From: a virus
Strand: one strand, 5' to 3'
Length of the DNA stretch: 64,000 nucleotides
IMG/VR virus record: IMGVR_UViG_3300008448_000019
Location: 1-64,000 of that record
The translations under genes were made by a program, and so were the position numbers. Position 1 is the first letter of the stretch. The number at the start of each line of letters is the position of its first letter. Shown here piece by piece: positions 5,168 to 61,219 of this stretch. Below the pieces are notes generated by a model that saw only the letters and a list, made by a program, of their open reading frames with translations, was not told where the DNA came from and did not search any database.

Positions 5168-6226
5168 CTAAATTAAATAGGAAAGTTGACCGCTAGTTAG
5201 GGTCTTAATTACCTTATCCGGATCCCTACGGCTAGGGATACTTATATGGGTATGCTGCCTCATAAAGGATAAGGTCGAATAGTAGTTATGTATCTGCTGT
5301 TTAGGGTAGACATAGCTATCCTTCTCAAACCTCATAACCTGGACCAGCTCAGCCTGAACCTCAATGATTGTCTGGTTAGGCCTCATAAATATCATGTTAG
5401 CTAGGCCAGAGCTTGTAATGGAAGCTAGGGTCTTTACCTCACTCATATACACAATCTGCTCCATAATAGAGCCAAACTTCTTCTCAGGGCTGAAAGCTTC
5501 GTACCCTTGACTGACAAAGAATTCCTCTAACTTTAGGGCGTCGTTCATTCTCAGGTCGTCCCTGTAGTCTGGATAGTCCTCTTCTATAGGTCCTAAATCA
5601 GATGGAGCGTTGCCTCTAGATATGTATAGCTTCCTAAACGGTTCAACCGACTCGGTAGCATTCATATACTTTCTAGAGTATTTAATAGCAATGTCTGCCA
5701 TATACTCCACGTCTAAGAAAGACATCAAGTGGTGGATATTGACTTGTCTGTCTATTCGCACATAGTTATTAAATTTATAGACTGGTGCATAGTCTTTCCC
5801 CGGTACGGTGGATACGGTTGTATAGTTTACACCTTGCCCGTCTAGAATTAAAAATAGTAGCTCGTAGAAATTATCTATACCCTTAGTGCCTCTAGCTCTT
5901 TGTAGGTATAAAACAAACTTAATATTTGAATGCTCCTTATGTATCTTAAGGATCATAGTTAGAGAGTCTATAAAAAAGTGATAGATAGTGTCTTGGACAT
6001 AAATTAAAACTTTAATCTCATCTGAAATCATTTCATTTGTATCTACAAAATCTAATTCAGTGCTGCCCATATTTACGGGATCAGGGTTATGTAGAGATAA
6101 TGAAAGATCTTTTAAAGACGGAGCGAGACTAAACTCTTCAAAAATTTGGTGCGTAGTTATGTAGCACTCTTCTGGCTCGTATGTATTCTCTAAATCAATA
6201 CGTAATTTTCTAGTGGATTCTTCCAT
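5168..6226 (-). CDS. GT61-like (DUF563-type) glycosyltransferase
   Basis: This 352-residue protein has the C-terminal signature of GT61/DUF563 transferases: LYISRGN at about 200-206, then a GY-acidic segment (FFVSQGYEAFSPEKK). These are followed by a block with VKTLASITSSGLANMIF (264-280) and an IIEV strand. Such enzymes move a sugar from a nucleotide sugar to a glycan or protein. Two paralogues with the same block lie at 16454-17383 and 19398-20384, beside 2OG oxygenases. TAGTAT lies 6 nt before the ATG, consistent with leaderless expression. Donor and acceptor are unknown; fibres, host wall glycans or DNA bases are possible. Confidence 0.65.
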   Translation of the reverse strand: MEESTRKLRIDLENTYEPEECYITTHQIFEEFSLAPSLKDLSLSLHNPDPVNMGSTELDFVDTNEMISDEIKVLIYVQDTIYHFFIDSLTMILKIHKEHSNIKFVLYLQRARGTKGIDNFYELLFLILDGQGVNYTTVSTVPGKDYAPVYKFNNYVRIDRQVNIHHLMSFLDVEYMADIAIKYSRKYMNATESVEPFRKLYISRGNAPSDLGPIEEDYPDYRDDLRMNDALKLEEFFVSQGYEAFSPEKKFGSIMEQIVYMSEVKTLASITSSGLANMIFMRPNQTIIEVQAELVQVMRFEKDSYVYPKQQIHNYYSTLSFMRQHTHISIPSRRDPDKVIKTLTSGQLSYLI

Positions 6227-15721: not shown

Positions 15722-16426
15722 TTAATACTTCCTCTTAGTTGAATATTTCATATGTATATCGCTAGGACTGTGGACAAAACCTTCAGGTAGCTCTGTTTGT
15801 TTTATAAAGCAAGGAAACACGTAGCGAAAGGGACCGGGTCCAGGAGGGTTCACTCCATGAGGGTGTGTCTCACCCGATGAGAAAAACAGCATTGAACCAG
15901 CTTCAGGCTTAACTTCTAGCCCCTGCTCAGGGAATATGACTTCCCCGTGAACGTAATCATCATTCAAGTAGATAACTGCAGCGTAAGCAACATACGGATC
16001 AACATGGTTATCTACGTGAACTTTAAGATCTGACCCTTCGTATTGACGTTGAATAGTGCCTAGGCCATTAAAGTACAAGTTTGGGTCATAGGAGATAATC
16101 TTTGTAATAGCGTCATTAACTTTGCCTAGTATCGGGAGATTCTCGACTCTAACAGTTTTATCTGCCCAATCAAAAGTGATGGCGAGTTTGCCTTCTTTGT
16201 TTAAAGTTTCAATATCCCGAGTGCCATATTCTCGCTCCGCCCTATCGCGCAGGTGGTCCATGTAATGACCCAACCAGTCTTCTTCAGAAAGACTTTCAAT
16301 GTAGTCAAACACAGGCTTTAGATCTTCGTCATTTACAAGATTTCGCACTAGCCAAACTTCGGATGCAAGCTCTTCTACTTCATAGCCAGCAGCAGTAAAG
16401 GCGTCTACATTAAATACAGGACTCAT
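15722..16426 (-). CDS. 2OG/Fe(II) oxygenase, prolyl 4-hydroxylase-like
   Basis: The 234-residue protein has the iron-binding HVD (His137, Asp139) and HPHGV (His190), and Arg201 for 2-oxoglutarate. The P4H-type core YLNDDYVHGEVIFPEQ lies between them. Related enzymes hydroxylate prolines or other side chains. It is similar to the protein at 17393-18037, with the shared segment IQRQYEG. TATACT 7 nt before the ATG points to a leaderless start. The substrate is not shown by the sequence. Confidence 0.88.
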   Translation of the reverse strand: MSPVFNVDAFTAAGYEVEELASEVWLVRNLVNDEDLKPVFDYIESLSEEDWLGHYMDHLRDRAEREYGTRDIETLNKEGKLAITFDWADKTVRVENLPILGKVNDAITKIISYDPNLYFNGLGTIQRQYEGSDLKVHVDNHVDPYVAYAAVIYLNDDYVHGEVIFPEQGLEVKPEAGSMLFFSSGETHPHGVNPPGPGPFRYVFPCFIKQTELPEGFVHSPSDIHMKYSTKRKY

Positions 16427-16453: not shown

Positions 16454-17383
16454 TCAACCCGATAGAAGTGATTTTAGCCCTGAATTTGACTCAATAATCT
16501 CTAGTAAATTAGACGAGCTTCCATCGCTACTTATTGAGACATGGTTTAAATCAAAAGCTTTTGAGATCTCATAATACAATGTTTGAACCATACCAGGAGT
16601 TACCGCTGGGTCCCCATGAAATAGTTCAACAGCAAACTCCACGACAGTAGATCCAGGATGCATAAAAATAGAGGCCAGCAAAGATGAGCTGGTTACAGAA
16701 GCAAGGACTTTGGCAGACGTTATAATTTCCAACTGCTGATCATAAGTTTCAAGGTCTTCAGGGTATATAACAGTAAAACCAAGAGTGCGCATGTAGTCCT
16801 CTAAAACTTCTTCTTGAGAGATGCGATCTCCGAACGTGCTACTTAAGAGCGTCTTACCCCTACTCAGGTATATTTTTTCAGAAGGAGTTTTCTGCTCTAT
16901 TTCACTTAAAAATACATCTCTAACTCTTTTTAAAGTATACGGAGAACTAGCAATGCTCTTGCAGTGAACCACAAAGTTGTTTGCAACAGCACCGGTATTT
17001 ACCTGCTCAACTTGAGGAGTAAAGGTAATATCATGTCCCAAGCTTTTCAGTTTTCTAGAGAAGAATTCAAGAAGGGTCCCCGTGTTATTTCTTAGTGCGG
17101 GAATGCTTTCTGGACCAGCGCTAAATATAAAATGAATCTTTTCAGGCGAAGTGTCAATTTCATATATGGCGCAACCCAGTACTTCCGAAATTAAATGACC
17201 ATACGTAACATCTCCCGGAAGAAATACTTTTCTTTTTTTAGATATATAGCTTTGACTTACATCTTGCCCACCATAATCAGAAACTACTATCGACTGCCGG
17301 GTCATGTGGATATACTTAATATTTTCCCCTAGGTGACTGTCGGCAAACCCATAGGTTGGGTGCTCATTAACCCCAATACTCAT
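16454..17383 (-). CDS. GT61-like glycosyltransferase
   Basis: The 309-residue protein carries the GT61/DUF563 C-terminal pattern: IYLSRGKT (171-178), LGFTVIYPEDLE, and SAKVLASVTSSSLLASIF (223-240), then TVVEF. It closely resembles the paralogue at 19398-20384 and more distantly the one at 5168-6226. It lies between two P4H-like oxygenases on the same strand, 9 bases after one of them, so hydroxylation and glycosylation may be linked. AGGGAT serves as a weak ribosome binding site. Acceptor and donor are unknown. Confidence 0.65.
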   Translation of the reverse strand: MSIGVNEHPTYGFADSHLGENIKYIHMTRQSIVVSDYGGQDVSQSYISKKRKVFLPGDVTYGHLISEVLGCAIYEIDTSPEKIHFIFSAGPESIPALRNNTGTLLEFFSRKLKSLGHDITFTPQVEQVNTGAVANNFVVHCKSIASSPYTLKRVRDVFLSEIEQKTPSEKIYLSRGKTLLSSTFGDRISQEEVLEDYMRTLGFTVIYPEDLETYDQQLEIITSAKVLASVTSSSLLASIFMHPGSTVVEFAVELFHGDPAVTPGMVQTLYYEISKAFDLNHVSISSDGSSSNLLEIIESNSGLKSLLSG

Positions 17384-17392
17384 ATTTTATCC

Positions 17393-18037
17393 CTACACTT
17401 TTTTGTTTACAAAAGCTGGAAGCGCATACCTAACAGGTCCAGCTTCTACTGGAGTAACTCCATGTAGGTATTCGTCAGCCGAAGGGAAGACTATTAAGTT
17501 ACCAGCTTCTGGTTTAAACAGCACATCAATAGTAGGAAAGTGCAACTCCCCGCCATTGAAGTCTCCATTAACGTACATGACAGCAGCGTAGGCCACAAGA
17601 GGATTAGACAAGCTGTCTACGTGATACCCAAGGTCGATACCCTCATACTGCCTTTGAATAGATCCAGCGCCCTGTAGCTCTAGATCTTTTAAGTTTTCAA
17701 AGATTTTACCAAGCCTAGTATTAATACTGTTGCAGACAGTTTCATCTTTAATAAGGGCGTTTTTATCAACCCAATTCGAATCTATTTTAACAGGATGACC
17801 TAGCTCCTGGGCCTCTTCAATAGTGTCTACACCATATTGATTCTTAATAAACTCGTAAAGACTTTGAGTGTACTGAACACTCCAATCATCCTCGCTCATG
17901 CTCGAGAACTGATTGGTTAAAGTTTCGATCTCATGATCAGTCAGAAAATCTTTTACTACGAATATGCCAGGGTATATCTCACTAGCGGTTAATCCAGCAT
18001 TCGAGAAGTCGTCTAAAGCTAAAGATGCGTCTTTCAT
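17393..18037 (-). CDS. 2OG/Fe(II) oxygenase, prolyl 4-hydroxylase-like
   Basis: The 214-residue protein has HVD (His139, Asp141), LHGV (His192) and Arg203, around the core YVNGDFNGGELHFP. It is a sister of the enzyme at 15722-16426. The start follows TATAAT by 7 nt (leaderless type). It lies 8 bases downstream of the sugar nucleotidyltransferase gene and upstream of a GT61-like gene. Confidence 0.88.
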   Translation of the reverse strand: MKDASLALDDFSNAGLTASEIYPGIFVVKDFLTDHEIETLTNQFSSMSEDDWSVQYTQSLYEFIKNQYGVDTIEEAQELGHPVKIDSNWVDKNALIKDETVCNSINTRLGKIFENLKDLELQGAGSIQRQYEGIDLGYHVDSLSNPLVAYAAVMYVNGDFNGGELHFPTIDVLFKPEAGNLIVFPSADEYLHGVTPVEAGPVRYALPAFVNKKV

Positions 18038-18045
18038 ATGTTTAA

Positions 18046-18777
18046 TTATAGACTATCTGTCAGTGAATCCAAGTACAACTTTAAGTCCTCAGGAGTCCCT
18101 AGAGGTATCATCTTGTCCACAGGGTAGACACCTACAGATTTTCCATCAAGAATTGCCTCGTTATATACCGGAGTCACATAAAACTCACCGTTGACTCTAA
18201 TGTCCTTTTTAATCATTTGCTCTGCGTACTTGACAAAATCTGAGCCATATCTCCAATAATAAATCCCAACAGTGGCCTGGTCACTAATTGGATTCTTTTC
18301 AGCCACCTCGACTACATGACCACTCTCGTCTGTTTTAGCATAAGACCACTGGTCACCCTCGGCTGTAAAAGTAGCAATACTTCCATCTAAGTTTCTATTC
18401 TCCCCAGCATCTTTGAGGAAATCATTTGGCACCCACTCTACAATTTGATCTGCGTTACAGATTACTAACAAGTCATCGTTGTCTATGTAGTCTTTTGCAA
18501 CTAGTACAGTAGCTGCCGCCCCCTCTGTAATCTCATCTACTTCAAGCACAATAACTTCTAAAGACGGAGTCATCGCTGGGAGGAGCTCAGTAAGGTTGTA
18601 CTTTTTATTGTGTTCGGCCTGCACTACATAGACATAGCGAGCGCCGATGCCCATGCTCCAGACTGCCTTCTGAACCATAGGAAGCCCGGTTACATCAATC
18701 AAAGGTTTAGGCAATTCGTAGCCAGCATCGGAAAACCGACTGCCACCCCCGGCCATGGGAATAACTACGTTTGTCAT
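18046..18777 (-). CDS. Sugar nucleotidyltransferase
   Basis: The 243-residue protein has the NTP_transferase fold. It opens VVIPMAGGGSRF (nucleotide-binding loop, 4-15), followed by YELPKPLIDV (catalytic Lys) and LLVICNADQ (metal-binding Asp). These enzymes join a nucleotide to a sugar phosphate to make NDP-sugars, the donors for glycosyltransferases. GAGGAG precedes the ATG. Among GT61-like genes and beside oxygenases it probably supplies a donor for glycosylation. The sugar cannot be told; a LicC-type cytidylyltransferase is an alternative. Confidence 0.8.
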   Translation of the reverse strand: MTNVVIPMAGGGSRFSDAGYELPKPLIDVTGLPMVQKAVWSMGIGARYVYVVQAEHNKKYNLTELLPAMTPSLEVIVLEVDEITEGAAATVLVAKDYIDNDDLLVICNADQIVEWVPNDFLKDAGENRNLDGSIATFTAEGDQWSYAKTDESGHVVEVAEKNPISDQATVGIYYWRYGSDFVKYAEQMIKKDIRVNGEFYVTPVYNEAILDGKSVGVYPVDKMIPLGTPEDLKLYLDSLTDSL

Positions 18778-18846
18778 AGGGAAAATCTCCTCAGCTTGCG
18801 TTCCGGTAATATAGTCTAATACTACGTGAAACTAGGAGACTTAAAT

Positions 18847-19401
18847 ATGGAACCCACCTACGAAGTGCTAGAGGGGAACATCTCTGCAGACGAGCTACGC
18901 CAGCTTAACGAGATGGTAATAAAAAATTCTGGCTACGACCCGAAGCCTTTATTTGAGGGGTCTGGACTTATAGAAAGTTTTTCAGTAGAGGTTCCAGAAA
19001 ACTATCCTATATCTATGGATCCAAACAAAATCTTACTTAAAGTTTTGAATATTGTAAAAGACTACTTTTTAGATAAATATGACATGCTGGGGACACTAAC
19101 GTTTAATCGGATGTTTGGTGTCACCATGTTTGAGGGGGCAGTTCTACCTGCACACAGGGATGAAGACGCAAACAACGATGGCATATTTGATGGAATGAAG
19201 CGGTCTCACGTTTGCAGTCTTATTCTAAACGATGACTATGAAGGCGGGGAACTTGTGTTCCCAGATCAGAACACTTCTGTAAAAGCAAAAGCTGGAGACA
19301 TGGTTGTCTTCCCTGGCTATTATGTTTCGCACGGAGTTGCAGAGATTACAAAAGGAACACGTAGAGTTCTTCTAGTTTTCTTCTACGACGTTCTTTCTTA
19401 A
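18847..19401 (+). CDS. 2OG/Fe(II) oxygenase, prolyl 4-hydroxylase-like
   Basis: The start is ATG 18847, 8 nt after AGGAGA; a GTG at 18826 lies before that site. The 184-residue protein has HRD (His103, Asp105), SHGV (His162) and an Arg pair at 172-173, around LNDDYEGGELVFPDQ. The core is almost identical to those of the enzymes in the 50-55 kb cassette. It is transcribed away from the nucleotidyltransferase and convergent with a GT61-like gene. Confidence 0.88.
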   Translation: MEPTYEVLEGNISADELRQLNEMVIKNSGYDPKPLFEGSGLIESFSVEVPENYPISMDPNKILLKVLNIVKDYFLDKYDMLGTLTFNRMFGVTMFEGAVLPAHRDEDANNDGIFDGMKRSHVCSLILNDDYEGGELVFPDQNTSVKAKAGDMVVFPGYYVSHGVAEITKGTRRVLLVFFYDVLS

Positions 19402-20384
19402 CTCAATAGAAAGCTTTTAACAGCTAAATTTGTTTCTATAGAGTTAATTACTTCGGAAGCAACTCTAGAATTAGAAATTGAAAGATAGTTTTTTCTATTT
19501 ACTTCGGACAAGACTTTGTAGTGGGAGTGGATCCTGCTATCCTCCAACGGGGTAGAAAGCTCTACTATGCAAGTATTTGGTGCCATAACTACAGAGGCAA
19601 TTAATGAAGAGCTAGTAACAGAGGCTAAAAGTTTAGCTGACGCTATTAGCTGCAGCTGATCAGCAAAAGACTCTATGTCCTCTGGGTATACAATTTCAAA
19701 TCCAAGACTTTTAAAGTAAGCTTCTACTTGCTCTTCATCATCTATTCTGTCAGTGAATTTATATTTGTTTTCGTCTCTATACTTACTCATGCCAATCGAT
19801 GTTGTCGTCTCAGACAGAGGGATCATCATATGTTTGTTACCAATATAAGTTGTAGTCTTACCCCTACTTAAATAGATTTTTTTACTAGGAGGTTTAGAGT
19901 AGTCAAGACCGCTAGACAAGAAAGCACCAACCCTAGAACCGTTATCCGGGGCAATGTGATGCCACATTTTGTATAAGACAAAGTTATTTATGACAACCCC
20001 ACCATCATCTATAAACTCGACTTCATGACCTAGATCAGTGAACCTCTTGACTAAGTACTTTGTGAGACTTTCAGATCCTTCTAAAATTCGTTCCCTATGG
20101 TCAGCGCTTTGGGCAAAAACAAAAATGAGCTTTTCTTTAGTTAAAGACATTTCTTTTATGGCCATATCGACCCAAAACATTAGTATGTGGCCATACGAAT
20201 CAGTATTGTCAAAAACAATTTTTCTTTTGTTAGAAACCAAAAACTTAACAGAGTTGGAGCCCACTTTACTGGTATTAAAGTCTTCCACTCTAAATCGATT
20301 TGCACTGTGGCCATTTCTTCTTAAGAGCTTTGTCTCGCTATGCCAAGTACCAGCATGAGCTTCTACATCATGTTTAGCCCTCAT
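19398..20384 (-). CDS. GT61-like glycosyltransferase
   Basis: I prefer ATG 20384, with GGAG upstream, over ATG 20408. The 328-residue protein has IYLSRGKT, a FKSLGFEIVYPEDIESF segment and SAKLLASVTSSSLIASVV, as in the paralogue at 16454-17383. Between SRGKT and the GF segment it carries an extra 20-30 residues, which may alter specificity. The 3' end overlaps the oxygenase gene 18847-19401 on the other strand by 4 bases. Confidence 0.65.
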   Translation of the reverse strand: MRAKHDVEAHAGTWHSETKLLRRNGHSANRFRVEDFNTSKVGSNSVKFLVSNKRKIVFDNTDSYGHILMFWVDMAIKEMSLTKEKLIFVFAQSADHRERILEGSESLTKYLVKRFTDLGHEVEFIDDGGVVINNFVLYKMWHHIAPDNGSRVGAFLSSGLDYSKPPSKKIYLSRGKTTTYIGNKHMMIPLSETTTSIGMSKYRDENKYKFTDRIDDEEQVEAYFKSLGFEIVYPEDIESFADQLQLIASAKLLASVTSSSLIASVVMAPNTCIVELSTPLEDSRIHSHYKVLSEVNRKNYLSISNSRVASEVINSIETNLAVKSFLLS

Positions 20385-20541
20385 GTTGCACTCCCTGGTG
20401 ACACTCACACGAGCACCTGTGCCTAGGAAACTCCACTATACACTCCTCATCATTTCCATCCATACACCATCCAAATAGGACTTTCTTCTCTGCTGCTTCG
20501 TCTGCAACAGTAGTGGCGTTTATATTTTCACGTTCAGACAT
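20374..20541 (-). CDS. Small Cys-rich protein, 55 aa
   Basis: The start is ATG 20541 with AGGAGC upstream, one base after the stop of the DUF2061 gene. The C-terminal half (GWCMDGNDEECIV...RHRCSCECHQG) has five Cys and two His, enough for a zinc site. It overlaps the next gene by 11 bases. The function is unknown. Confidence 0.55.
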   Translation of the reverse strand: MSERENINATTVADEAAEKKVLFGWCMDGNDEECIVEFPRHRCSCECHQGVQHEG

Positions 20542-20743: not shown

Positions 20744-20800
20744 ATTCCCATATCATAACACAGCCCCACACTTAGGGACCTTATGATATATAATTACCAT

Positions 20801-24061: not shown

Positions 24062-24079
24062 TTTTTCTTTTCCTTTCTG

Positions 24080-24153
24080 TCGAGACTGTCGGACTTGAAC
24101 CGACGACCGAACGGTTATGAGCCGTTTGCTCTAACCAGCTGAGCTAAGTCTCG
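24080..24153 (-). tRNA. tRNA with CAU anticodon (Met, or Ile2)
   Basis: The 74-nt cloverleaf on the minus strand has a 7-bp acceptor CGAGACT/AGTCTCG and a D-arm GCTC...GAGC. The anticodon loop is CTCATAA (CAU) and the T-arm is GTCGG-TTCAAGT-CCGAC, with discriminator A. CCA is not encoded. The acceptor is fully paired, so it is an elongator Met or a lysidine-modified Ile tRNA, not an initiator by obvious signs. Confidence 0.92.
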
Positions 24154-24186: not shown

Positions 24187-25122
24187 TTAAAAAAGATCTT
24201 TATATTTCTCATACTCGTCTTCAAGACCAATTGAGTGCCACCAGTCTCGAGGAGATTTAATGGCCTTTAACACTTTAAAAGGACCAGAATTACTAATCAT
24301 AGCTGCAAAAATCTTGGGGCACACTACAGACAAATCATCTTTCTGGATGCCCCAACTATCACGAAAATTCCTATTGTGGCTCTCCGGCTCACTACTGTAG
24401 ACCGTTTCATAATACCTATCTGGTTCATGATTAATAACTTTCTGCGTCACCATCAACCTCGAGGTCCAACCCAGCATAAACATTTCAAAAGATAGGAACG
24501 GCTCTTCTTGGTCATTTTGCCAGAGTTCGCCCCATCTAATCTCATCTGCAAAGGTTCCTCTAGTGAATATCATTCCAGCTTGAACATAGTCTGAAACAGG
24601 CATCTCTTCAGTCTCTAATAAGTCTTTGTATATTAAATCTTTCATAACAAGCCTCGGGATATTTACTTCATTATCTAAGCTGACAGACATCTGATAGTGA
24701 ATATACTTCATGGTGCCATTCTTGTGCAAAATTGAGCCAGGCTCGTAAGCCTGTAGTACTGTCTTCTTGTCATTGAATGACTCTAAGCTGCGGATTAACT
24801 CTTCGTCCCAGCCTTCCGCCAAAAAGGTGTGAGAATCTATAGATAGATAGTAGTCTTCGCCAGCATACAACTTATTAAGGATGCTTCTAAGCCTGTATAC
24901 CCCTGGCCTATTTTCAGGGTGTATAGTCAACAATCTTAGGTTTTTACTAGGAAGCCCCGTAAGATCTGGCATTGGAATTTCATTATCGTACTGAGCACCA
25001 ATAGCAACAAACACTCTTTCAGGGTTCAAGGCATTTTGAAATATTGAATCAAGAGTCTCCCTAAGCACTGGATCTCTATAAGCAGGGACCATAACAAAAA
25101 TTGTTTTGTTTAGGTAACTCAC
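24187..25122 (-). CDS. GT60-like glycosyltransferase (hydroxyproline GlcNAc-transferase family)
   Basis: The 311-residue protein matches the pattern of PF11397/GT60. It opens IFVMVPAYRDPVLRETL (8-24) and has NPERVFVAIGAQYD (33-46). RPGVYRLRSILNKLYAGEDYYLSIDSHTF (72-100) follows, with the metal-binding SIDSH, then GWDEELI (104-110). The known member Gnt1 of Dictyostelium adds GlcNAc to hydroxyproline on Skp1. In a genome with eleven P4H-like enzymes and collagen-like fibres this is striking. It starts at GTG with a G-rich ribosome binding site. A general GT2-like role remains possible. Confidence 0.7.
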   Translation of the reverse strand: MSYLNKTIFVMVPAYRDPVLRETLDSIFQNALNPERVFVAIGAQYDNEIPMPDLTGLPSKNLRLLTIHPENRPGVYRLRSILNKLYAGEDYYLSIDSHTFLAEGWDEELIRSLESFNDKKTVLQAYEPGSILHKNGTMKYIHYQMSVSLDNEVNIPRLVMKDLIYKDLLETEEMPVSDYVQAGMIFTRGTFADEIRWGELWQNDQEEPFLSFEMFMLGWTSRLMVTQKVINHEPDRYYETVYSSEPESHNRNFRDSWGIQKDDLSVVCPKIFAAMISNSGPFKVLKAIKSPRDWWHSIGLEDEYEKYKDLF

Positions 25123-25218: not shown

Positions 25219-25548
25219 ATGACAACTGAAGAAAAAAGTCAAGCCGCTACCAAGATCAATCCTCGCGCAGGGCTACTTCGCGGAGTTCGCTTATGGCCAG
25301 ACCCAGACGGAATCCTAGACAGCCCGTTCGAAGAGCAAGGCCAGAAGATGGGCTATGTCTATGTGTACGGCGAAGAGGAGCCTGCAGTGTTTGACGGAAC
25401 AGCTTGGCACCCAATTCTTGTTGACTCCCTTGATTGGAACTCAATGCAGGATGAAGTTGCAGCTCAGTACTACAAAGTAATAAAGCACGCGGAAACCAAT
25501 AAAGAGTACGAGGATCTAGCCAACTATATAAATGGAACTAATTACTAG
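25219..25548 (+). CDS. Hypothetical protein, 109 aa
   Basis: The acidic, soluble protein has a YVYVYGEEEPAVFDGTAWHPI segment that looks beta-rich. AGGAGA lies before the ATG. It is transcribed between the GT60-like gene and an oxygenase and converges on the latter, overlapping by 4 bases. No family is recognised. Confidence 0.65.
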   Translation: MTTEEKSQAATKINPRAGLLRGVRLWPDPDGILDSPFEEQGQKMGYVYVYGEEEPAVFDGTAWHPILVDSLDWNSMQDEVAAQYYKVIKHAETNKEYEDLANYINGTNY

Positions 25549-26207
25549 TTAATTACGTCTCCACCAGCTACATCTTCTGCAAAAAACTGAACTGAAGAGA
25601 TGTTGCCTTTTCGCGCAAAGAAGAATACTAGGACTTTTCTTAGGCCACCAGTGACGGTCTTTACTTCGTGTATGTGGTCTATGTCGCCTCTAAAGTAGAC
25701 CAGCTGGCCTGCTTTAGGCTTTATCAATATATTTTGTAGAGGAAACTCTATCTCTCCACCAGTGAAATCTACCCCTACGCTATTTAGATAGACAAGAGCA
25801 GAAAACTCCAACTCTTCTTCAATGCCATCATCTCTCCAAGGAGAGCCATCTAGTTTTGTACTATCCGAGTGAAGAGGGTTACTTCCACCCTCTCCTAGCT
25901 CTTGGTAGTTGCAGTTTACTAAATCCATCTCGACGCCAAAGTGTTCTTCCATGGAAACTCTGACTCTTTTGTATACGTCTTCTAAAGCTCTAACGGTTTT
26001 TTCTGATTCAGTGCCCTCGAATCCCGGGACAGCAGGAGTCCCACTACCGACAGAAGCAGCTATTGCAGAGGTCTCGTATCCCAAAGCTCCACGCATTGCC
26101 TGCCTAGGGCTGTCCTTTAGCATAGGGTCTAGGAACTCTACTAGCTCTACTATCAAGCTACTGTCTAGAAAATCGTCTATTACAATCGGTCCCATAAATT
26201 TATCCAT
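25545..26207 (-). CDS. 2OG/Fe(II) oxygenase, prolyl 4-hydroxylase-like
   Basis: The start at ATG 26207 is chosen because TATACT lies 7 nt upstream; longer in-frame starts precede the box. The 220-residue protein has HSD (His113, Asp115), HIHEV (His180) and Arg190, with the core TGGEIEFPLQNILIKPKAG. A long loop between the strands (SPWRDDGIEEELE) is typical of eukaryote-like P4H proteins. The substrate is unknown. Confidence 0.88.
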   Translation of the reverse strand: MDKFMGPIVIDDFLDSSLIVELVEFLDPMLKDSPRQAMRGALGYETSAIAASVGSGTPAVPGFEGTESEKTVRALEDVYKRVRVSMEEHFGVEMDLVNCNYQELGEGGSNPLHSDSTKLDGSPWRDDGIEEELEFSALVYLNSVGVDFTGGEIEFPLQNILIKPKAGQLVYFRGDIDHIHEVKTVTGGLRKVLVFFFARKGNISSVQFFAEDVAGGDVIN

Positions 26208-26233
26208 AACCACTAGTATACCTTGGGCTAGGG

Positions 26234-26239
26234 TAAAAT
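26234..26239 (+). promoter_or_regulatory. -10 box TAAAAT for 26280 gene
   Basis: TAAAAT stands 40 bases before the ATG, and GAGGAT provides the ribosome binding site. It faces the leaderless promoter of the oxygenase gene, so the two transcripts start almost back to back. Confidence 0.45.
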
Positions 26240-26279
26240 GATATAACAAGCCCAGTAATTACGATCAAACCGAGGATAA

Positions 26280-28986: not shown

Positions 28987-29665
28987 CTTTTGATTCCCCA
29001 ACAATAGTGGCGTCTACTATATTCTTTACAGTTGACGCGTACCACTTTCTACCATTCTGCGTAGGCACCTCGTCCCTGTTCAGATCATCAGCAATCTTTC
29101 CATAGGCGCGTCCACGATTTCGCTCCGACAAGATGCGCTCCTTGACCTCAGCTGGAGTCTTGTTCTTAGGCCCCATATCCACACCCCAAACAATCCCCCG
29201 CTCGCGGCGGTCTTTATGCACGTCTTTCTGGCGAGCAGCAATAATGCCTCGCTCCATCTCAGCGAGCGCCGACATCACCGTCACAACGAAGCGCCCCTGG
29301 TAGGTCGAGGTGTCTAGGTTTAGGTCCAACATGATCAACCTCCACCCCTCCTTGTTGGCTCTATCCACGATATCCAAGAAGTCTGTAGTCGACCTAGCAA
29401 GTCTGTCTATTCTTGTAACAATAAGGGCGTCTACTTCTTTGCGCTTCAAGCGCCCCAACGTCTCTGTCAAAGCCGGCCTACCAGTAATCGACTTACCAGA
29501 CTTACCCTCTTCACGCACCAGCTCCCATGATTCAAAGCCATGGAACTCAGCAGCGTTCACCATTGTGCGTTCCTGCACGTCTAGCGACACTCCATCGCTC
29601 ACTTGTAGCGCTGTAGATACTCGAGCATAGAGGAGGGCTTTTCCGGCTCTAATAGGGGCGTCCAC
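28976..29665 (-). CDS. Serine recombinase (resolvase/invertase type)
   Basis: The 229-residue protein has LLYARVSTALQ (catalytic Ser17), EGKSGKSITGRPAL, DALIVTRIDRLARST and FVVTVMSALAEMER. A short C-terminal HTH follows (ERNRGRAYGKIADDLNRDEVPT). The size fits resolvases and invertases, not large integrases. It starts at GTG overlapping the upstream stop (TAGTG). It could resolve multimers, invert a segment or move DNA cassettes. No crossover site is evident. Confidence 0.9.
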   Translation of the reverse strand: MDAPIRAGKALLYARVSTALQVSDGVSLDVQERTMVNAAEFHGFESWELVREEGKSGKSITGRPALTETLGRLKRKEVDALIVTRIDRLARSTTDFLDIVDRANKEGWRLIMLDLNLDTSTYQGRFVVTVMSALAEMERGIIAARQKDVHKDRRERGIVWGVDMGPKNKTPAEVKERILSERNRGRAYGKIADDLNRDEVPTQNGRKWYASTVKNIVDATIVGESKDEA

Positions 29666-30258
29666 TATTTCAGCTCAAAGTTTTTATCTTTTGTTGTCCA
29701 GAAGCACAAGCTATACCTGTCTTCCTCGACAGGCTTAACGTAGTGCATTCCAGTTGTTTTACTAGGGAAGAATACAAGATCGCCCTTCTCTGGCTTGTGA
29801 GAGTAGTTTAAGCTGACAAACTTAAGCTCACCGCCAACTTTTAGAGTGTTTAAATATAAAACAGCGCTGTACTCAAAGTGAAGGTTTACTCCGTTATCTA
29901 CATCAGAGTGCATCCCCACCTCAGCCCCAGGATACTGTTTGGCCACAAACATAGAGCACATATAGAGATCATCAGTGACGCTATAAAAATCTTTAATCTT
30001 GTCTAGTATTTTAGAGATTAGACTACGTACTTTAACTAGTTCCTCCCCCTTAAAAAGATCCATAGTGGGCCTAGCAAGAAGCTTATTCTTAATGTCATTT
30101 TCATAGTTACCAAAGATTAGTGTTCTTCTTTTCCCGTCTTGGACAACCATAAAATTGTCTAGCTCATCTTTTTCAAGCCTGTTTATCAAGTCTATGTAGT
30201 AAGAAATGTCTGCATCGTCAACAAACCCGGGGGCCACTTCTATTTTGTCTAATTTCAT
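29665..30258 (-). CDS. 2OG/Fe(II) oxygenase, prolyl 4-hydroxylase-like
   Basis: Start ATG 30258 follows TATACT by 6 nt (leaderless). The 197-residue protein has HSD (His117, Asp119), MHYV (His172) and Arg181. The core LYLNTLKVGGELKF is more divergent than in the cassette enzymes. The gene overlaps the recombinase start by 1 base, so the two are cotranscribed. It diverges from a second oxygenase at 30333. Confidence 0.85.
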   Translation of the reverse strand: MKLDKIEVAPGFVDDADISYYIDLINRLEKDELDNFMVVQDGKRRTLIFGNYENDIKNKLLARPTMDLFKGEELVKVRSLISKILDKIKDFYSVTDDLYMCSMFVAKQYPGAEVGMHSDVDNGVNLHFEYSAVLYLNTLKVGGELKFVSLNYSHKPEKGDLVFFPSKTTGMHYVKPVEEDRYSLCFWTTKDKNFELK

Positions 30259-30332
30259 ATTTACAGTATACAAAGAAAACTCTCCCTCTGCAAAGGAATA
30301 GGGGCGCTTATAGTTCTTGCTATACTGTAAAA
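30245..30332. promoter_or_regulatory. Mirrored divergent leaderless promoters
   Basis: On the minus strand TATACTGTAAAT leads straight into ATG 30258. On the plus strand TATACTGTAAAA leads straight into ATG 30333. The two oxygenase genes thus have near-identical start elements facing apart, separated by about 50 bases. Confidence 0.75.
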
Positions 30333-30935
30333 ATGATAGAAAACAGATTCCCGGACTACATAATTGATGATAATTTCTTGAGTTTAGAGGACTTGGCTGA
30401 GCTAAAAGATTCTATTTTAGAGCTCCCATTCTCCTTAAACCCATCAATCGGGGCAGCCAACGATGGGATTTATGGAATAGAAGGACCTAACTTCTTAGAT
30501 AGACTAGTTGTAGTCTCTGAGCCCGATCCAGAAGACATAAACAGTCCACTTCTCCCCCTAGCCCACAAGCTAGTAGACAAGTTCTGCGACAAGCATAACT
30601 TTAAGGTTTTAGACTTTTTTAGGACAAGGGTCAATCTAACACCTCTTTCAAAAGACAATAGACCACTAACCCCCCACGTAGACCTAAGAAACAGATATAA
30701 GCACTACATTCTTTTAATATTTCTAAATGACTCTGACGGAGATACCATTATGTATGACCTAAAGGTGGACGGAAATATTCACAAGCAAGAAGAGCTAAAG
30801 ATTATGAAAAGGCTCTCCCCTAAAGCCGGTAGGGCAGTACTTTTTGATGGAGACTACTTCCACGCATGGGAACACCCAAAAGACCACGACTACCGGCTAA
30901 GCATGATAGCCAACATTAGCGTTGAAAAGCTGTGA
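30333..30935 (+). CDS. 2OG/Fe(II) oxygenase family protein
   Basis: The 200-residue protein has PHVDLR (His115, Asp117), FHAWEHP (His177) and Arg188. An insertion (GNIHKQEELKIMKRL) separates the strands. The core IFLNDSDGDTIMYD differs from the LNDDYEGGE type, so this is a separate subfamily, like those often seen in cyanophage genomes. The leaderless start is described in the divergent promoter entry. Confidence 0.8.
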   Translation: MIENRFPDYIIDDNFLSLEDLAELKDSILELPFSLNPSIGAANDGIYGIEGPNFLDRLVVVSEPDPEDINSPLLPLAHKLVDKFCDKHNFKVLDFFRTRVNLTPLSKDNRPLTPHVDLRNRYKHYILLIFLNDSDGDTIMYDLKVDGNIHKQEELKIMKRLSPKAGRAVLFDGDYFHAWEHPKDHDYRLSMIANISVEKL

Positions 30936-49077: not shown

Positions 49078-49917
49078 ATGAGCAAATCACCTGGCAAGCG
49101 TTCCCAACAGCAAAATGACTCTTTAGAGCCATCGGCTCCTATTAACATAGTTGCTACAAACGTAGGAACAAACAGGGGATTTAACAATGGTGCAGCAAGC
49201 GTAGCTTTTTCTCTACCTGCCACCTCACCAGAAGCAACTTCTTACACCGTAACCGCTACGGCTTCTGGAGAAACAACTAGGACTGGAACAGGGTCTTCAT
49301 CTCCAGTAGTGGTAGAGACTCTAACTTCTGCAGTAACTTATACCATTAGCGTGACTGCAACAAATGCAGCAGGAACATCAGCCTCTTCTGCAACAACAAC
49401 AGTAGCCGTGACCACTGTGCCAGCAACACCAAACGCCCCTACAGTCACTAACTCTACTGCTAACACAACAAATCCAGGATCTAACGCTAACCAAATTGAC
49501 GCGGTCTCTTGGTCAGCCCCTGCAACTGGCGGATCTGCAATAACTTCTTATTACTGGGAGAGTACAGACTCTAAATCAGACACTACTGCATCAACTTCAG
49601 CAAACGTGCTTCAGGAAGCTAACACTTCTCAGCAGTATAAAGTAAGAGCAATTAATGCTAACGGTAACTCGGAGTTTTCCCCCCTTTCTATTCAAAACAC
49701 AACTCCTCCATTCTTTCCACCATTTTTTCCTTTCTTCCCGCCGTTCTTCCCGTTTTTCCCATTCTTCCCGTTCTTCCCATTCTTCCCTCCTTTCTTCCCG
49801 TTCTTCCCGCCTAGGTTCCCTTTCTTCCCGTTCTTCCCGCCTAGGTTCCCTTTCTTCCCGTTCTTCCCGCCTAGGTTCCCTTTCTTCCCTCCTGGCTTCC
49901 GGGTTAGAGCAGTTTAG
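49078..49917 (+). CDS. FN3 protein with Phe-Pro repeat tail
   Basis: The 279-residue protein has two fibronectin type III-like domains (about 20-110 and 118-205). The C-terminal 65 residues are almost only Phe, Pro and a few Arg (FFPPFFPFFPPFFPFFPFF...). The end of the tail is built of a 30-base repeat. TAGAAT lies 8 nt before the ATG. The tail is very hydrophobic and could insert in or bind to a membrane or pack inside a fibre. I recognise no family for it. Confidence 0.65.
   Translation: MSKSPGKRSQQQNDSLEPSAPINIVATNVGTNRGFNNGAASVAFSLPATSPEATSYTVTATASGETTRTGTGSSSPVVVETLTSAVTYTISVTATNAAGTSASSATTTVAVTTVPATPNAPTVTNSTANTTNPGSNANQIDAVSWSAPATGGSAITSYYWESTDSKSDTTASTSANVLQEANTSQQYKVRAINANGNSEFSPLSIQNTTPPFFPPFFPFFPPFFPFFPFFPFFPFFPPFFPFFPPRFPFFPFFPPRFPFFPFFPPRFPFFPPGFRVRAV
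49801..49890 (+). repeat. 30-bp tandem repeat in FFP tail
   Basis: Three units begin TTCTTCCCGCCTAGG at 49801, 49831 and 49861, differing only at the last base. Each encodes about ten residues of the Phe/Pro tail, so the tail length can change by slippage. Confidence 0.9.
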
Positions 49918-49980
49918 ACACCAGTAAGATTTATCACTGTTTTTACAGCAAATTTTAAAAAATGCTGTAGGATGTACAGT

Positions 49981-50724
49981 ATGAATGATTGGTTTACAAA
50001 AGATAGGTCAGAGACCTCAGCAAATAGAATGCCAGATAGGGCATCGCTGCACAATCCAAATATCAGTGTAGCTAACCCTGCCCTAGGTATTAACGTGTAT
50101 AGTGGAGCAATTACCAAGGAACAAGGTAAAAGCTATATTGATACGCTAGAGAAAAACTTAAGTAGTGGTGGCAGGTATGGCTGGAACGGCGCTCGAGTCA
50201 CCTCGTCTTCGGAAGTTGATCTACAAGCAAGAAATGCTTTAGATTTTAAAATAAACTCCACTGGTTTAGGCCCGCGCAATGAACACAACGCCGAACTCTA
50301 CGATGTTCACGAAGGAGTCTTTCAAGCGGTCCGCCAATGTGTAGATGATTACGGTCAATACTGGGGCGTAGGTATTGCATCTTACGAAGCTTTTAATTTT
50401 GTAAAATATGACGGACCGGGAACCCACTTTAAAGTTCACGCAGACCACGGGCCAACTTATGTGTGCACCATATCAGTTGTTGTATACCTAAACGACGACT
50501 ACGAGGGTGGAGAGATCTGGTTTCCTAGAATGAATAGCTTATCTATTAAGCCTAAAGCTGGAGACATCGTGGTTTTCCCATCCACATATATCTATGAACA
50601 TGCTTCTCAAGATATGATCTCGGGAGTCAAATATTCAGTTGTAATTATGACTGACTATAACGACCGAGGCGACGTAAATCATAAAGTTTCCCCAATTATT
50701 CAAGACTACAAGCTAAAGTATTAA
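49981..50724 (+). CDS. 2OG/Fe(II) oxygenase, prolyl 4-hydroxylase-like (cassette 1)
   Basis: TAGGAT lies 7 nt before ATG 49981 and overlaps an earlier ATG at 49972, so the later start is chosen. The 247-residue protein has HAD (His153, Asp155), EHAS (His207) and Lys217 for 2-oxoglutarate, as in animal P4H. The core is LNDDYEGGEIWFP. The N-terminal 100 residues are specific to this enzyme and its neighbour at 50735. It is the first gene of the cassette between the fibre modules. Confidence 0.88.
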   Translation: MNDWFTKDRSETSANRMPDRASLHNPNISVANPALGINVYSGAITKEQGKSYIDTLEKNLSSGGRYGWNGARVTSSSEVDLQARNALDFKINSTGLGPRNEHNAELYDVHEGVFQAVRQCVDDYGQYWGVGIASYEAFNFVKYDGPGTHFKVHADHGPTYVCTISVVVYLNDDYEGGEIWFPRMNSLSIKPKAGDIVVFPSTYIYEHASQDMISGVKYSVVIMTDYNDRGDVNHKVSPIIQDYKLKY

Positions 50725-50734
50725 GGAGTTTAAA

Positions 50735-51484
50735 ATGCAAGATAAGCATGTAGGAGAGCCAGACGACCGAATGAAACAGGAGATGTCAGAGCACCAAGAT
50801 AGACTCCAAAATTGGTATGAGATTCAAGAACAAACGTGGTCTAATGCTAGAGAAATAGCCCCAAACTCCGGTATCTGGGTATACGAGAACGTAATTCAAG
50901 AAAATATGGACGTTATCAATCGTCTAGAAGGTGTTCTATTAGACCCTTCTAACAGATATACATATCAAGATGCGTTAGTTGGCTACGGAGTAAAAATGCC
51001 AGAGTATAGAGACTGCTTTGACTTTAAATACAAAAAAAGTGATATTGAACACGACAAGTCAGAGGCTGGACAAAAACTAGTAAAGCTGTGGGAAGACACT
51101 CACTACAGGCAGCTACAAGCAGTCAAACACTACACCAAAAATTACAACATCGGTGAGCTCCGCTATTGGGAGGCAACTAACTACGTTAAGTATGGACCAG
51201 GGCAACACTTTCAAGAGCACCACGATCACGGGTACTCGTATAACTGCGTAGTGTCTTTGGTGGCTTTTCCAAACGACAACTATGAAGGTGGAGAGCTGGC
51301 TTTCAGCATCCAAGGAGTTACTGTTAAACCTAAAGCTGGAGATTTGTATGTGTTCCCATCTAACTACATGTACCCCCACCGAGCTATGCCAGTAACATCC
51401 GGTACAAAATACTCGATGGTAACTATGTTAGATTTTTCCGATAAGTTTCACAAGCCTGCTTTCGATATCGAGACCGGAAACTAG
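50735..51484 (+). CDS. 2OG/Fe(II) oxygenase, prolyl 4-hydroxylase-like (cassette 2)
   Basis: AAGGAG lies 6 nt before the ATG. The 249-residue protein has EHHDHG (His162, Asp164), YPHRA (His215) and Lys225. The core reads PNDNYEGGELAFS. Its catalytic half is close to that of 49981 (VKYGPGQHFQEHHDHG against VKYDGPGTHFKVHADHG), so the two are recent duplicates. Confidence 0.88.
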   Translation: MQDKHVGEPDDRMKQEMSEHQDRLQNWYEIQEQTWSNAREIAPNSGIWVYENVIQENMDVINRLEGVLLDPSNRYTYQDALVGYGVKMPEYRDCFDFKYKKSDIEHDKSEAGQKLVKLWEDTHYRQLQAVKHYTKNYNIGELRYWEATNYVKYGPGQHFQEHHDHGYSYNCVVSLVAFPNDNYEGGELAFSIQGVTVKPKAGDLYVFPSNYMYPHRAMPVTSGTKYSMVTMLDFSDKFHKPAFDIETGN

Positions 51485-52218
51485 TGAAAAAAATAAGGGT
51501 CCAACGATTAGGACCTGAATCAGCTAAATTAGAACAGCTAAAAGCCACTAGAGACTGGATGGACAATACAGCTGATAAGCATGCCTACATGTGTTTTCCG
51601 TTAACGCTAACAAATGGTCTTGGCTGGGGAATATCATTTGATAGAGATATTCGTGCAGTGTGGGATGGTGTAGACAACTATGAACCGGACCATGTAACAA
51701 TTTTAGAGGGCGAAGATACCGTGTATACAGGTAGGTCCCATGCAAGCTTAAGCTTTAAAACCGGACTACTAATTAATACAGATGAAGATACGTCTATATT
51801 AACGATGCCAGTCCCCAATCAATTCATAAGAGGAATGCAGACTTTTACAACTCTTATGAGCACGTCTTTTTATCCCGGAGAACTACCAATAGCTATAAAA
51901 ATAACCGAACCAAATAAAGAAATATTTATACCAGCGGGAACTCCAGTTGCTGCAATCATACCAATTTCAGTAGCTGGCCTACAAAATAACTACGAGATGT
52001 CAATAACCGAAGGAAGCATGCCACCAGAGTACTGGGAAGAGCTAAAAAAGTATGGAGACGCAGCGGAGGCTAAAAATTCTGTAGGCGACTGGTCTAAAAT
52101 GTATAGAAATGCTACTAACTATGACGGATCTTCTATGGGAAAGCACGAGACAAAAAGTATTAAACTAAAAACAACAGTATGCCCCGTGACAGGAGCTACA
52201 AGTGAAACAGCTAATTAG
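51484..52218 (+). CDS. DUF6065-like protein (first copy)
   Basis: It starts at GTG overlapping the upstream TAG (TAGTG). The 244-residue protein has LGWGISFDRDIRAVWDG, then DTSILTMPVPNQF, FYPGELPIAIKI and EIFIPAGTPVAAIIPI. The last segments match the DUF6065 pattern as I recall it. It is a beta-rich fold with no known chemistry. It shares plan with the next gene, and together they break the run of oxygenases. Confidence 0.55.
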   Translation: MKKIRVQRLGPESAKLEQLKATRDWMDNTADKHAYMCFPLTLTNGLGWGISFDRDIRAVWDGVDNYEPDHVTILEGEDTVYTGRSHASLSFKTGLLINTDEDTSILTMPVPNQFIRGMQTFTTLMSTSFYPGELPIAIKITEPNKEIFIPAGTPVAAIIPISVAGLQNNYEMSITEGSMPPEYWEELKKYGDAAEAKNSVGDWSKMYRNATNYDGSSMGKHETKSIKLKTTVCPVTGATSETAN

Positions 52219-52936: not shown

Positions 52937-52950
52937 TATAGGATATAACT

Positions 52951-53646
52951 ATGAGCCAAGAAAATGTAACTAACAGCAAATCCAACCCTGTAAGGGTTTC
53001 AATCACGCCTTCCGGCTTTTTTGGAGCATCTCCAGACAATATCGTTTCTTTAGACAACTTTATGACGGAGTATGAGCTAGAGTATTTAAATAATTTTGCT
53101 CGTAAAAATACAGCCTGGGATGTGACTGAGTCCCATTTTAATGAAGATGGAGTATGTATCTATGACGCCTCTTACTGGGCAGACCGCGTAGCTACAGATG
53201 AAACTTTAAACTCTGTAGACCCCAAAGTTGTAGAAGTTATTGAAGGCATGCAAGCTAGGCTAAAAGTAGAAGTAGATAAATTTTTTAACGTAGATGCTCT
53301 ACCCACCAGCGCAGCTGTGGTCAGGTGGCTGCCTGGACAATTCCAATATCCGCATGCAGATAAAGAGCTACATATTGGTGAAGATCGAGGTAAACCAAAT
53401 GACTTTCCATACTATGACATTGCCGGACTGTTCTACATAAATGACGATTACGAGGGTGGAGAGTTGTACTTCCCAGATCAAGGAATACAGTTTAAGCCAA
53501 AGCCTGGATCAGCATACTTTTTTCCAGGAGATATGAACTACATCCACGGGGTGACGGAAATTACATCTGGAATTAGATATGTTTGTCCGTTTTTCTGGAC
53601 AATAGTGTCACACAAAAACACTAGCTCAGAGAAAATTGGAGAGTAG
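52951..53646 (+). CDS. 2OG/Fe(II) oxygenase, prolyl 4-hydroxylase-like (cassette 3)
   Basis: TAGGAT lies 6 nt before the ATG, so it may have its own leaderless promoter inside the cassette. The 231-residue protein has HAD (His135, Asp137), YIHGV (His199) and Arg209, with the core INDDYEGGELYFPDQG. A charged loop (KELHIGEDRGKPND) follows the first iron ligand pair. It is distinct from the first two cassette enzymes. Confidence 0.88.
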   Translation: MSQENVTNSKSNPVRVSITPSGFFGASPDNIVSLDNFMTEYELEYLNNFARKNTAWDVTESHFNEDGVCIYDASYWADRVATDETLNSVDPKVVEVIEGMQARLKVEVDKFFNVDALPTSAAVVRWLPGQFQYPHADKELHIGEDRGKPNDFPYYDIAGLFYINDDYEGGELYFPDQGIQFKPKPGSAYFFPGDMNYIHGVTEITSGIRYVCPFFWTIVSHKNTSSEKIGE

Positions 53647-53648
53647 AT

Positions 53649-54383
53649 ATGTCACTTTTTGTAGATAGCATAGACGTCAGTACTTTTAAAATTTACAAAG
53701 ACGCTCCCAACACTTTAGGAGAGCTAGGAATTCCACAAAATAGGATTATAGAAATTCCAAATTTTGTGACCCCTGAAGCCGCTGTGAGCATTATTAACTA
53801 TGTCGAATCATACTCAGAAATATGGGGAGATATAGCATTTTACGGATCCTCCGGCATGGGAATACACCCAGATGACCCAAGACTTGCTGAATACAACTTA
53901 CCGCCTATGTTTTTTGACTCACTAAGAAATAGGTTTAAAGAAGCTATAGAAGCTGTATTTGATAGAGAAGTGGTTGCAAACACGTCTCACGCTCAAAAAT
54001 GGGATGTAGGAGGTTTTGCTGCGCCTCACTCAGATAACTCAGATTTTGATGGAACGCCAAACGCTTTTGAGATTAATAAGTACGTTGGAATACTTTATCT
54101 AAATAACGACTACGAGGGTGGAGAGTTATACTTCCCAGAACACAACATAGAGTTCCAGCCAGCTGCATACTCTTATATTTGTTTCCCTGGAGGTGTTGAG
54201 AATATCCACGGAGTAAAAGAAATACTAAAAGGAACTAGGTATACTATGGTTTCTTTTTGGGATTTTGCCGACGCAGAGTACTCAGACGAAACAAAAGCCA
54301 AGTGGGAAGAAGAAATAAAAGGAATTCGTTCTGAGCAGGCTGCGCAAAAAGAAGAGTGGGAAAAAGGAAACAAGTACGCATAG
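53649..54383 (+). CDS. 2OG/Fe(II) oxygenase, prolyl 4-hydroxylase-like (cassette 4)
   Basis: GGAGAG precedes the ATG. The 244-residue protein has HSD (His127, Asp129), NIHGV (His187) and Arg197. The core is LNNDYEGGELYFPEHN. An acidic/basic C-terminal helix extends it (KAKWEEEIKGIRSEQAAQ). It overlaps the next gene by 1 base. Confidence 0.88.
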   Translation: MSLFVDSIDVSTFKIYKDAPNTLGELGIPQNRIIEIPNFVTPEAAVSIINYVESYSEIWGDIAFYGSSGMGIHPDDPRLAEYNLPPMFFDSLRNRFKEAIEAVFDREVVANTSHAQKWDVGGFAAPHSDNSDFDGTPNAFEINKYVGILYLNNDYEGGELYFPEHNIEFQPAAYSYICFPGGVENIHGVKEILKGTRYTMVSFWDFADAEYSDETKAKWEEEIKGIRSEQAAQKEEWEKGNKYA

Positions 54384-54979
54384 TGAGCCCAGAAGTATTT
54401 GCAGAAAGAATTTGCTACTATGAACAGGCCATCCCCAATCCAAAGAATATAGTAGAGCTACTAGAAACATCTAACAGTCAGCTAAAAAATGGTGATCTAA
54501 TAGACCCATGGCGCGAATGGGTAGCCTCGGGGACAGAAGAAAAACAAATATTTGGACATCAAAAATATACAGACGAGGCTAAGCTTAGCAAAAGCTCAGA
54601 AGTAGTTTCTTTTATATACACCACTATAAAGTCAGCACTAGACGCCGCAGGCAAAGACTACGCCCAAAGATTTAACATAGAGTACATAGAACCAGAGTCA
54701 ATAGGAATCTCTAAATATAGGGTAGGCGCTGCAATGGGGCCGCACGTTGACTACTACGGGGAACCAAATATTGAGCCACTTATGTCTGCTGTTATGTATT
54801 TAAATGATGATTATGAAGGAGGAGAGCTTAGGTTCCCCGACCAAGATGTGACAATAAAGCCCTCGGCAGGAAGTATTCTAGTTTTCCCCTCGGTGCCCCC
54901 CTTTTACCACGAACCCCTTCCTGTAACTTTTGGTACAAAATACATATCAGCAGCATTCTGGATAAAAAAGTTAAAGTAA
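54383..54979 (+). CDS. 2OG/Fe(II) oxygenase, prolyl 4-hydroxylase-like (cassette 5)
   Basis: I choose GTG 54383, which overlaps the upstream TAG (TAGTG), as at 51484; an ATG at 54356 lies inside the previous gene. The 198-residue protein has HVD (His121, Asp123), FYHEP (His176) and Lys186. The core is LNDDYEGGELRFPDQD. The cassette ends here; the second fibre module starts 91 bases later with its own promoter. Confidence 0.87.
   Translation: MSPEVFAERICYYEQAIPNPKNIVELLETSNSQLKNGDLIDPWREWVASGTEEKQIFGHQKYTDEAKLSKSSEVVSFIYTTIKSALDAAGKDYAQRFNIEYIEPESIGISKYRVGAAMGPHVDYYGEPNIEPLMSAVMYLNDDYEGGELRFPDQDVTIKPSAGSILVFPSVPPFYHEPLPVTFGTKYISAAFWIKKLK

Positions 54980-55070: not shown

Positions 55071-58728
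<3,658 letters not shown>

Positions 58729-58729
<1 letters not shown>

Positions 58730-59619: not shown

Positions 59620-61218
<1,599 letters not shown>

Positions 61219-61219
<1 letters not shown>

Follow-up and report, generated by a model that had tools for sequence, protein, structure and literature searches.

Can a phage carry both of the enzymes needed to hydroxylate a protein and then attach a sugar to the new hydroxyl? The question arises from a gene at positions 24187 to 25122 of an IMG/VR virus record (IMGVR_UViG_3300008448_000019) of 99,258 bases and 44.9% G+C, the first 64 kb of which form the window analyzed here. A reading made from the letters alone (the sequence-only reading) assigned the product to glycosyltransferase family GT60, placed the gene beside prolyl-hydroxylase-like genes, and proposed a viral hydroxylate-then-glycosylate pathway with collagen-like proteins as ready targets. 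In eukaryotes, sugars linked to hydroxyproline are known on Skp1 and in plant cell walls, and on Dictyostelium Skp1 the prolyl 4-hydroxylase (P4H) PhyA acts first and the GT60 GlcNAc-transferase Gnt1 second. The use that viruses make of prolyl hydroxylase has been termed cryptic in a study of viral auxiliary genes (PMC9301287).

A WhiB gene at record positions 73629-74123 (PF02467, E 5e-17), together with the G+C content and the collagen-like genes, gives the record a resemblance to phages of low-GC freshwater Actinobacteria (PMC10202952), and we infer that its host probably belongs to the freshwater actinobacteria. Features of the window are collected in Table 1.

Table 1. Genes of the window that bear on the proposed pathway (2OG, 2OG-Fe(II) oxygenase)
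Positions	Strand	Feature	Support
5168..6226	-	GT61 glycosyltransferase	E 2e-10
15722..16426	-	2OG in sugar-gene cluster	PF13640 E 2.4e-9
16454..17383	-	GT61 (PF04577) glycosyltransferase	E 1.6e-13
17393..18037	-	2OG, same sugar-gene cluster as 15722-16426	PF13640 E 3.6e-9
18046..18777	-	Sugar-1-phosphate nucleotidyltransferase-like, RmlA/GlmU type	39% to that of the L004 GT60 operon
18826..19401	+	2OG	PF13640 E 1.1e-8
19398..20408	-	GT61 glycosyltransferase	E 1.9e-13
20783-21385		JmjC/cupin protein	
24187..25122	-	GT60/PF11397 glycosyltransferase, 311 aa, GTG start	DSH (residues 96-98), GWDE, EE (206-207), C-terminal His 232
25219..25548	+	109-aa ORF between GT60 and 25545-26249	No family matched
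25545..26249	-	2OG nearest GT60	PF13640 E 2.3e-9
29665..30273	-	2OG, candidate GT60 partner	PF13640 E 5e-12
30333..30935	+	2OG-like, under Pfam cut-off	E 1.9e-4; 44% to an L010 protein
49078..49917	+	fn3 protein, C-terminal PFF/PPFF repeat, candidate hydroxyproline acceptor	
49972..50724	+	2OG of fibre cassette	PF13640 E 6e-12
50735..51484	+	2OG of fibre cassette	PF13640 E 3e-14
51484..52218	+	DUF6065 protein inside fibre cassette	PF19541 E 2.5e-25
52951..53646	+	2OG of fibre cassette	PF13640 E 3.3e-7
53649..54383	+	2OG of fibre cassette	PF13640 E 3.2e-7
54356..54979	+	2OG of fibre cassette	PF13640 E 5e-13
55430..58729	+	Collagen-like protein, 1099 aa, GPT/GAT-rich, candidate Thr acceptor	PF01391 E 1.2e-63, 11 stretches
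59648..61219	+	Collagen-like protein, 523 aa	PF01391 E 1.8e-39

The glycosyltransferase

The sequence-only reading had seen AYRDP, SIDSH, and GWDEELI in the order of the GT60 family and had named a best match to GT2 as an outcome that would count against it. The motifs do stand in that order, at residues 14-18, 94-98, and 104-110, and the Pfam match is to PF11397 (GlcNAc, GT60; E 1.1e-24, 88 bits, cut-off 21), the GT2 models Glycos_transf_2 and Glyco_tranf_2_3 reaching 0.05 at best, under the cut-off. PF11397 is present once in the full record, as two stretches (profile positions 1-43 and about 97-259 of 352), which leave the C-terminal third of the profile uncovered and the match short of full length; the protein also falls about 100 aa short of the GT60 kind more usual in viruses (about 420 aa). 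Full-length coverage is not a defining catalytic feature, yet its lack marks the clade of this protein as outlying. PF11397 matches all 40 of the aligned relatives, viral and bacterial, and this 40-member alignment shows no variation at D96, H98, W105, D106, E206, and G218 and almost none at E207 and H232. Replacement of DxD by DxH is a trait of GT27 and GT60 (PMC7185993), and D96-S-H98 has this form, accompanied by the downstream WD, the EE acid, and the C-terminal His. By these sequence comparisons, the protein is a member of GT60, in a short, outlying clade that has kept its catalytic residues.

A phmmer search of the PDB gave no meaningful match and a profile search only a weak one, to GalNAc-T7 (E 0.18), and a fold search was therefore adopted; among NCBIfam models none matches the protein. 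The AlphaFold model (pLDDT 85.6) has as its first 23 PDB matches GT27 polypeptide GalNAc-transferases (ppGalNAc-T) exclusively. Predicted fold and retained residues together point to an active-looking GT-A enzyme of a retaining family. It is only the family name that suggests UDP-GlcNAc as the donor, which may be a sugar other than GlcNAc, because the phage also has a sugar nucleotidyltransferase (18046-18777) and three GT61 genes. Membership in GT60 does not imply a hydroxyproline acceptor, because the Trypanosoma cruzi enzymes of the family act on Thr, the product of TcOGNT being GlcNAc-alpha-Thr (PMC9472816, PMC3769586); Ser/Thr O-glycosylation is common to GT60 and GT27 (PMC7185993).

Among named phage genomes, XacN1 alone has a relative of this GT60 (25%), whose own relatives are in two Stenotrophomonas phages; no hydroxylase is named in the annotation of the XacN1 region. 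A search of bacterial genomes returned Luteibacter only, and a narrower viral scan using the close GT60 trio found no further close members. We note that a tRNA-Met (cat) lies directly downstream of the gene, at 24079-24153, that HNH endonuclease-like genes are at 23552-24061 and 1089-1757, and that a full-length DUF6421 protein (E 7e-201) is encoded by this phage at 21901-23226.

The oxygenases

PF13640 has 11 matches in the record, all of them inside the window and 10 over the Pfam cut-off, and each of the 11 sequences shows the HxD...H triad and, after it, an Arg or Lys. Searched against the PDB, the profile of this group finds prolyl 3-hydroxylase 1 (P3H1), Bacillus P4H, PiuC, and PBCV-1 P4H; P3H1 and Bacillus P4H come first and stand far above Tet-like dioxygenases. 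In a fold search, the predicted model of 29665-30273 is nearest the PBCV-1 prolyl hydroxylase vCPH, followed by bacterial P4H and PHD2. Profile and model thus support assignment of the group to the protein prolyl hydroxylase type, although likeness to the P4H fold does not fix the substrate of 29665-30273.

The description of the GT60 gene as lying beside prolyl-hydroxylase-like genes needs qualifying: such genes are plentiful, and one lies upstream on the same strand at a distance of 422 bp, but the 109-aa ORF on the opposite strand intervenes. Beyond that oxygenase gene, a glutathione-peroxidase-like gene (PF00255; 26280-26903) on the opposite strand adjoins a 2OG gene and a dUTPase-like gene, and at 28081-29665 an APH-like kinase gene (sub-cut-off) overlaps a serine recombinase gene.

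GT60-oxygenase pairs in related phages

Related viral contigs place the two genes much closer together. In L004, whose GT60 is 68% identical, the order is nucleotidyltransferase-HAD, cupin, GT61-like, an ORF without assignment, 2OG, and GT60, the last two overlapping by 29 bp. In L010 (GT60 57% identical), a 2OG gene is followed after a 2-bp gap by a second GT60 gene. G067 has two 2OG-GT60 pairs with overlaps of 20 and 1 bp, the gap is 17 bp in G072, and the genes overlap in G070. The paired 2OG-like proteins are not all equally clear, as two of them (in G067 and G070) match a model built in this analysis and not Pfam, and the one in G070 has no clear HxD. In a single phage record (G067:C1:85000-110900; L378, L379), GT60 is present as four paralogues, and two of these have a paired 2OG.

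Six of the lineage's 12 canonical GT60 genes (those of the L004, L010, G067, G070, and G072 loci plus the window) have a 2OG gene directly upstream, compared with 22 of the 206 other non-2OG genes of the lineage loci; the P values (Fisher, 0.0014; binomial, 0.0008) are a guide only, because related genes are treated as independent. Divergent GT60 genes near 2OGs, which came from a scan with 50735-51484, are excluded from this count because a 2OG was the basis on which their loci were selected; once they are counted, a 2OG is upstream of 6 of 23 (P = 0.04) and on either side of 12 of 23 (P = 0.003). In a tree, the GT60s of the window and L004, two from L010, and two from G067 form one clade (support 100/97), and four of these six have a 2OG directly upstream. 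Pairing does not extend to more distant GT60s: 44 viral GT60 records include 40 more distant ones, of which 7 contain PF13640, never beside the GT60 gene and no nearer than 4.5 kb, and the 2OG model finds nothing within the flanks of 76 loci of the distant kind.

The partner 2OG of L004 (45%) and one of those in G067 (33%) both have 29665-30273 as their best match in the window, which by sequence is most likely this genome's copy of the ancestral GT60 partner. The pair therefore appears to have been separated here, where the two genes share a strand but are separated by about 4.5 kb, with other genes between them. Across this phage lineage, the GT60 enzyme is evolutionarily tied to a P4H-like oxygenase. 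A literature search covering few subscription papers turned up no account of GT60-2OG pairing in phages.

Candidate acceptors

Composition speaks against the collagen-like proteins as ready targets of this couple. Proline at Y of Gly-X-Y is the canonical collagen P4H site, and in 296 Gly-X-Y triplets (from the proteins beginning at 55430 and 59648, part of that at 39929, and that at 64206, beyond the window; the window alone gives nearly the same) Pro is at X in 93 and at Y in 1, Thr is at Y in 211, and Lys is at neither position in any. The 3,017 triplets of related loci have X-Pro in 868, Y-Pro in 15, and Y-Thr in 1,799. By protein, Thr occupies 121 of 161 Y positions in 55430-58729 and 56 of 87 in 59648-61219. 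With a single Y-Pro in 296, canonical P4H sites are nearly lacking from these collagens, which were rejected as canonical targets; such sites are absent from bacterial collagens generally (PMC8968730).

A better hydroxyproline candidate is the fn3 protein 49078-49917, in which the repeat (residues 210-279, 70 residues) has 27 Pro, 34 Phe, and no Ser or Thr. Next to it, at 49972-54979 and between tail-fibre and collagen-like genes, is a conserved cassette of five 2OGs, the DUF6065 protein, and a 244-aa protein without assignment. When the cassette oxygenase 50735-51484 was used as a scan query, it returned 295 related stretches in viral contigs, of which 80 loci were kept. Of these 80 2OG loci, 65 contain a Pro/Phe/Tyr repeat ORF, mostly at most 150 bp upstream of a 2OG, against 0 of 76 control loci. 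At least 120 viral stretches match the PFF pattern itself, and 89 of these also have a 2OG gene; the repeat ORFs head the conserved cassette, which has 3 to 12 2OGs per related locus.

Divergent GT60s occur in 15 of the 80 kept loci (four tested match PF11397 with E values of 5e-21 to 1e-23). Their distance to the 2OG pair that follows is 16-20 bp or about 600 bp, and 12 of these 15 loci have a repeat ORF on the upstream side of the GT60. These genes make up another phage GT60 subfamily, placed between a PPFF/PPYF-repeat protein and tandem 2OGs. It has CGH in place of DxH, and its activity is therefore doubtful. Among long 2OG-cassette records, 8 of 38 have a GT60 match, 7 over the cut-off, and many cassettes are without one. 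In L263 (6204-7223) and its relatives, where CGH replaces DxH, the rest of the GT60 family pattern is kept, and this kind adjoins 2OGs and a 263-aa protein without assignment that has an HMD...H pattern.

Proposed mechanism

Of the hydroxylate-then-glycosylate pathway put forward at the outset, the link between the two enzymes is borne out by the conserved pairs, while a hydroxyproline acceptor does not follow from the family of the transferase. Our tentative preference, held at a little under an even chance, is that GT60 takes the second step after a P4H-like oxygenase and acts on hydroxyproline of a phage structural protein. The oxygenase would hydroxylate prolines of a Pro-rich structural protein, with the PFF/PPFF repeats of 49078-49917 and similar proteins as the first-choice target and the X-position prolines of the Gly-Pro-Thr collagens as the second. 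GT60 would then move a hexose or HexNAc from a UDP-sugar onto the new hydroxyl, as in the PhyA/Gnt1 modification of Skp1, and the fibres might in consequence be stiffened or masked. Several observations count against this reading: the distance between GT60 and 29665-30273 in the window, the opposite-strand ORF before the nearest 2OG, the near absence of Y-Pro, the Thr-specific GT60 enzymes, the CGH subfamily, the cassettes without GT60, and the weak 2OG-like proteins of G067 and G070. The more specific proposal of a dedicated phage counterpart of PhyA-Gnt1, in which portable 2OG-GT60 pairs of an abundant aquatic lineage are aimed at a Ser/Thr-free PPFF/PFF-repeat fibre protein, we consider unlikely.

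Alternative roles

The abundance of Thr at Y raises the possibility that GT60 glycosylates Thr of the Gly-Pro-Thr/Gly-Ala-Thr collagen-like fibres, or of other Thr-rich phage proteins, while the 2OGs act on different residues of those fibres, for example the X-position prolines. Gly-Hyp-Thr(Gal) in the cuticle collagen of a vent worm offers a likeness for such an arrangement, which would also agree with the Thr acceptor of TcOGNT and with the nearest folds, those of Thr/Ser ppGalNAc-transferases. A bacterial example is the glycosylated BclA, and the positions hydroxylated by Bacillus P4H include both X and Y (PMC8968730). However, Y-position Thr is nothing unusual among bacterial collagens, reaching 48% in Gram-positives and mostly unglycosylated (PMC8968730), and Thr glycosylation by itself leaves the frequent overlap of GT60 and hydroxylase genes unexplained; we regard this role as possible but rather improbable.

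It is less plausible still that GT60 and its neighboring 2OG serve host takeover or superinfection exclusion by modifying a non-virion acceptor, be it a host surface polymer, a lipid, or a secreted small molecule. The L004 pair shares its operon with the nucleotidyltransferase-HAD fusion, cupin, and GT61-like genes, as in polysaccharide loci, and adjoins lysis genes, but the GT60 family and its nearest folds are protein-acceptor enzymes, and neither a flippase nor a polymerase gene is seen among the scanned window proteins. That GT60 is a passenger gained by transfer, its 2OG neighbors a by-product of 2OG-rich genomes, would fit the 11 oxygenase genes in 99 kb and the position of GT60 apart from its partner in the window; we give this little credence, as overlapping pairs recur in divergent GT60s above the local background and the catalytic residues of GT60 are kept. 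Phage TET-GT systems are known, and some of the 2OGs have weak, sub-cut-off Tet_JBP matches, but DNA hypermodification, with the 2OGs hydroxylating a base in TET/JBP fashion and GT60 glycosylating it, is very unlikely given the ranking of P3H1 and P4H far above Tet-like dioxygenases, the peptide specificity of the GT60 family, and the absence of a C5 DNA methylase (PF00145) from seven lineage records, several of them fragments (control positive in 10 of 14 genomes).

Comparison with known systems

Returning to hydroxylation followed by glycosylation, we note that each element has a precedent, in GT60 itself, in viral P4H, and in the glycosylation of phage virions. The conserved pair gives a direct, testable function for at least some of the 2OG genes so abundant in viruses. 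It points to hydroxylation and glycosylation of virion fibres by the phage's own enzymes, and suggests that phages have evolved a two-step protein decoration of their own, with hydroxyproline as the candidate sugar-bearing residue.

TcOGNT (UDP-GlcNAc:polypeptide alpha-GlcNAc-transferase) is likewise a GT60 enzyme, and the mucin-like Thr on which it acts can be compared with the Thr-rich GPT/GAT collagens here; it is, however, a protist Golgi enzyme that does not need a hydroxylase partner. PBCV-1 vCPH is viral and, by the predicted model, the closest solved fold for the partner oxygenase 29665-30273, but it comes from an algal virus, the identity is only about 20%, and its gene is not known to be paired with GT60. 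Bacillus anthracis BclA with BaP4H provides a parallel of a bacterial collagen that has glycosylation plus a bacterial P4H (PMC8968730). BclA is, however, a spore protein served by different glycosyltransferases. Mycobacteriophage glycosyltransferases place glycans on the capsid and tail tube of actinobacterial phages, as cited in PMC12619734, and, unlike the system proposed here, without a hydroxylase step. As with PhyA-Gnt1, the phage has a GT60/PF11397 enzyme together with a P4H-type 2OG, and a like two-step logic is proposed for it. The two differ in that the phage genes are an overlapping or adjacent couple in relatives and the phage glycosyltransferase is shorter (about 310 aa), and no Skp1-like target is seen in the phage. 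The phage pair thus offers a prokaryote-side system for comparison with the eukaryotic oxygen-sensing modification pathway.
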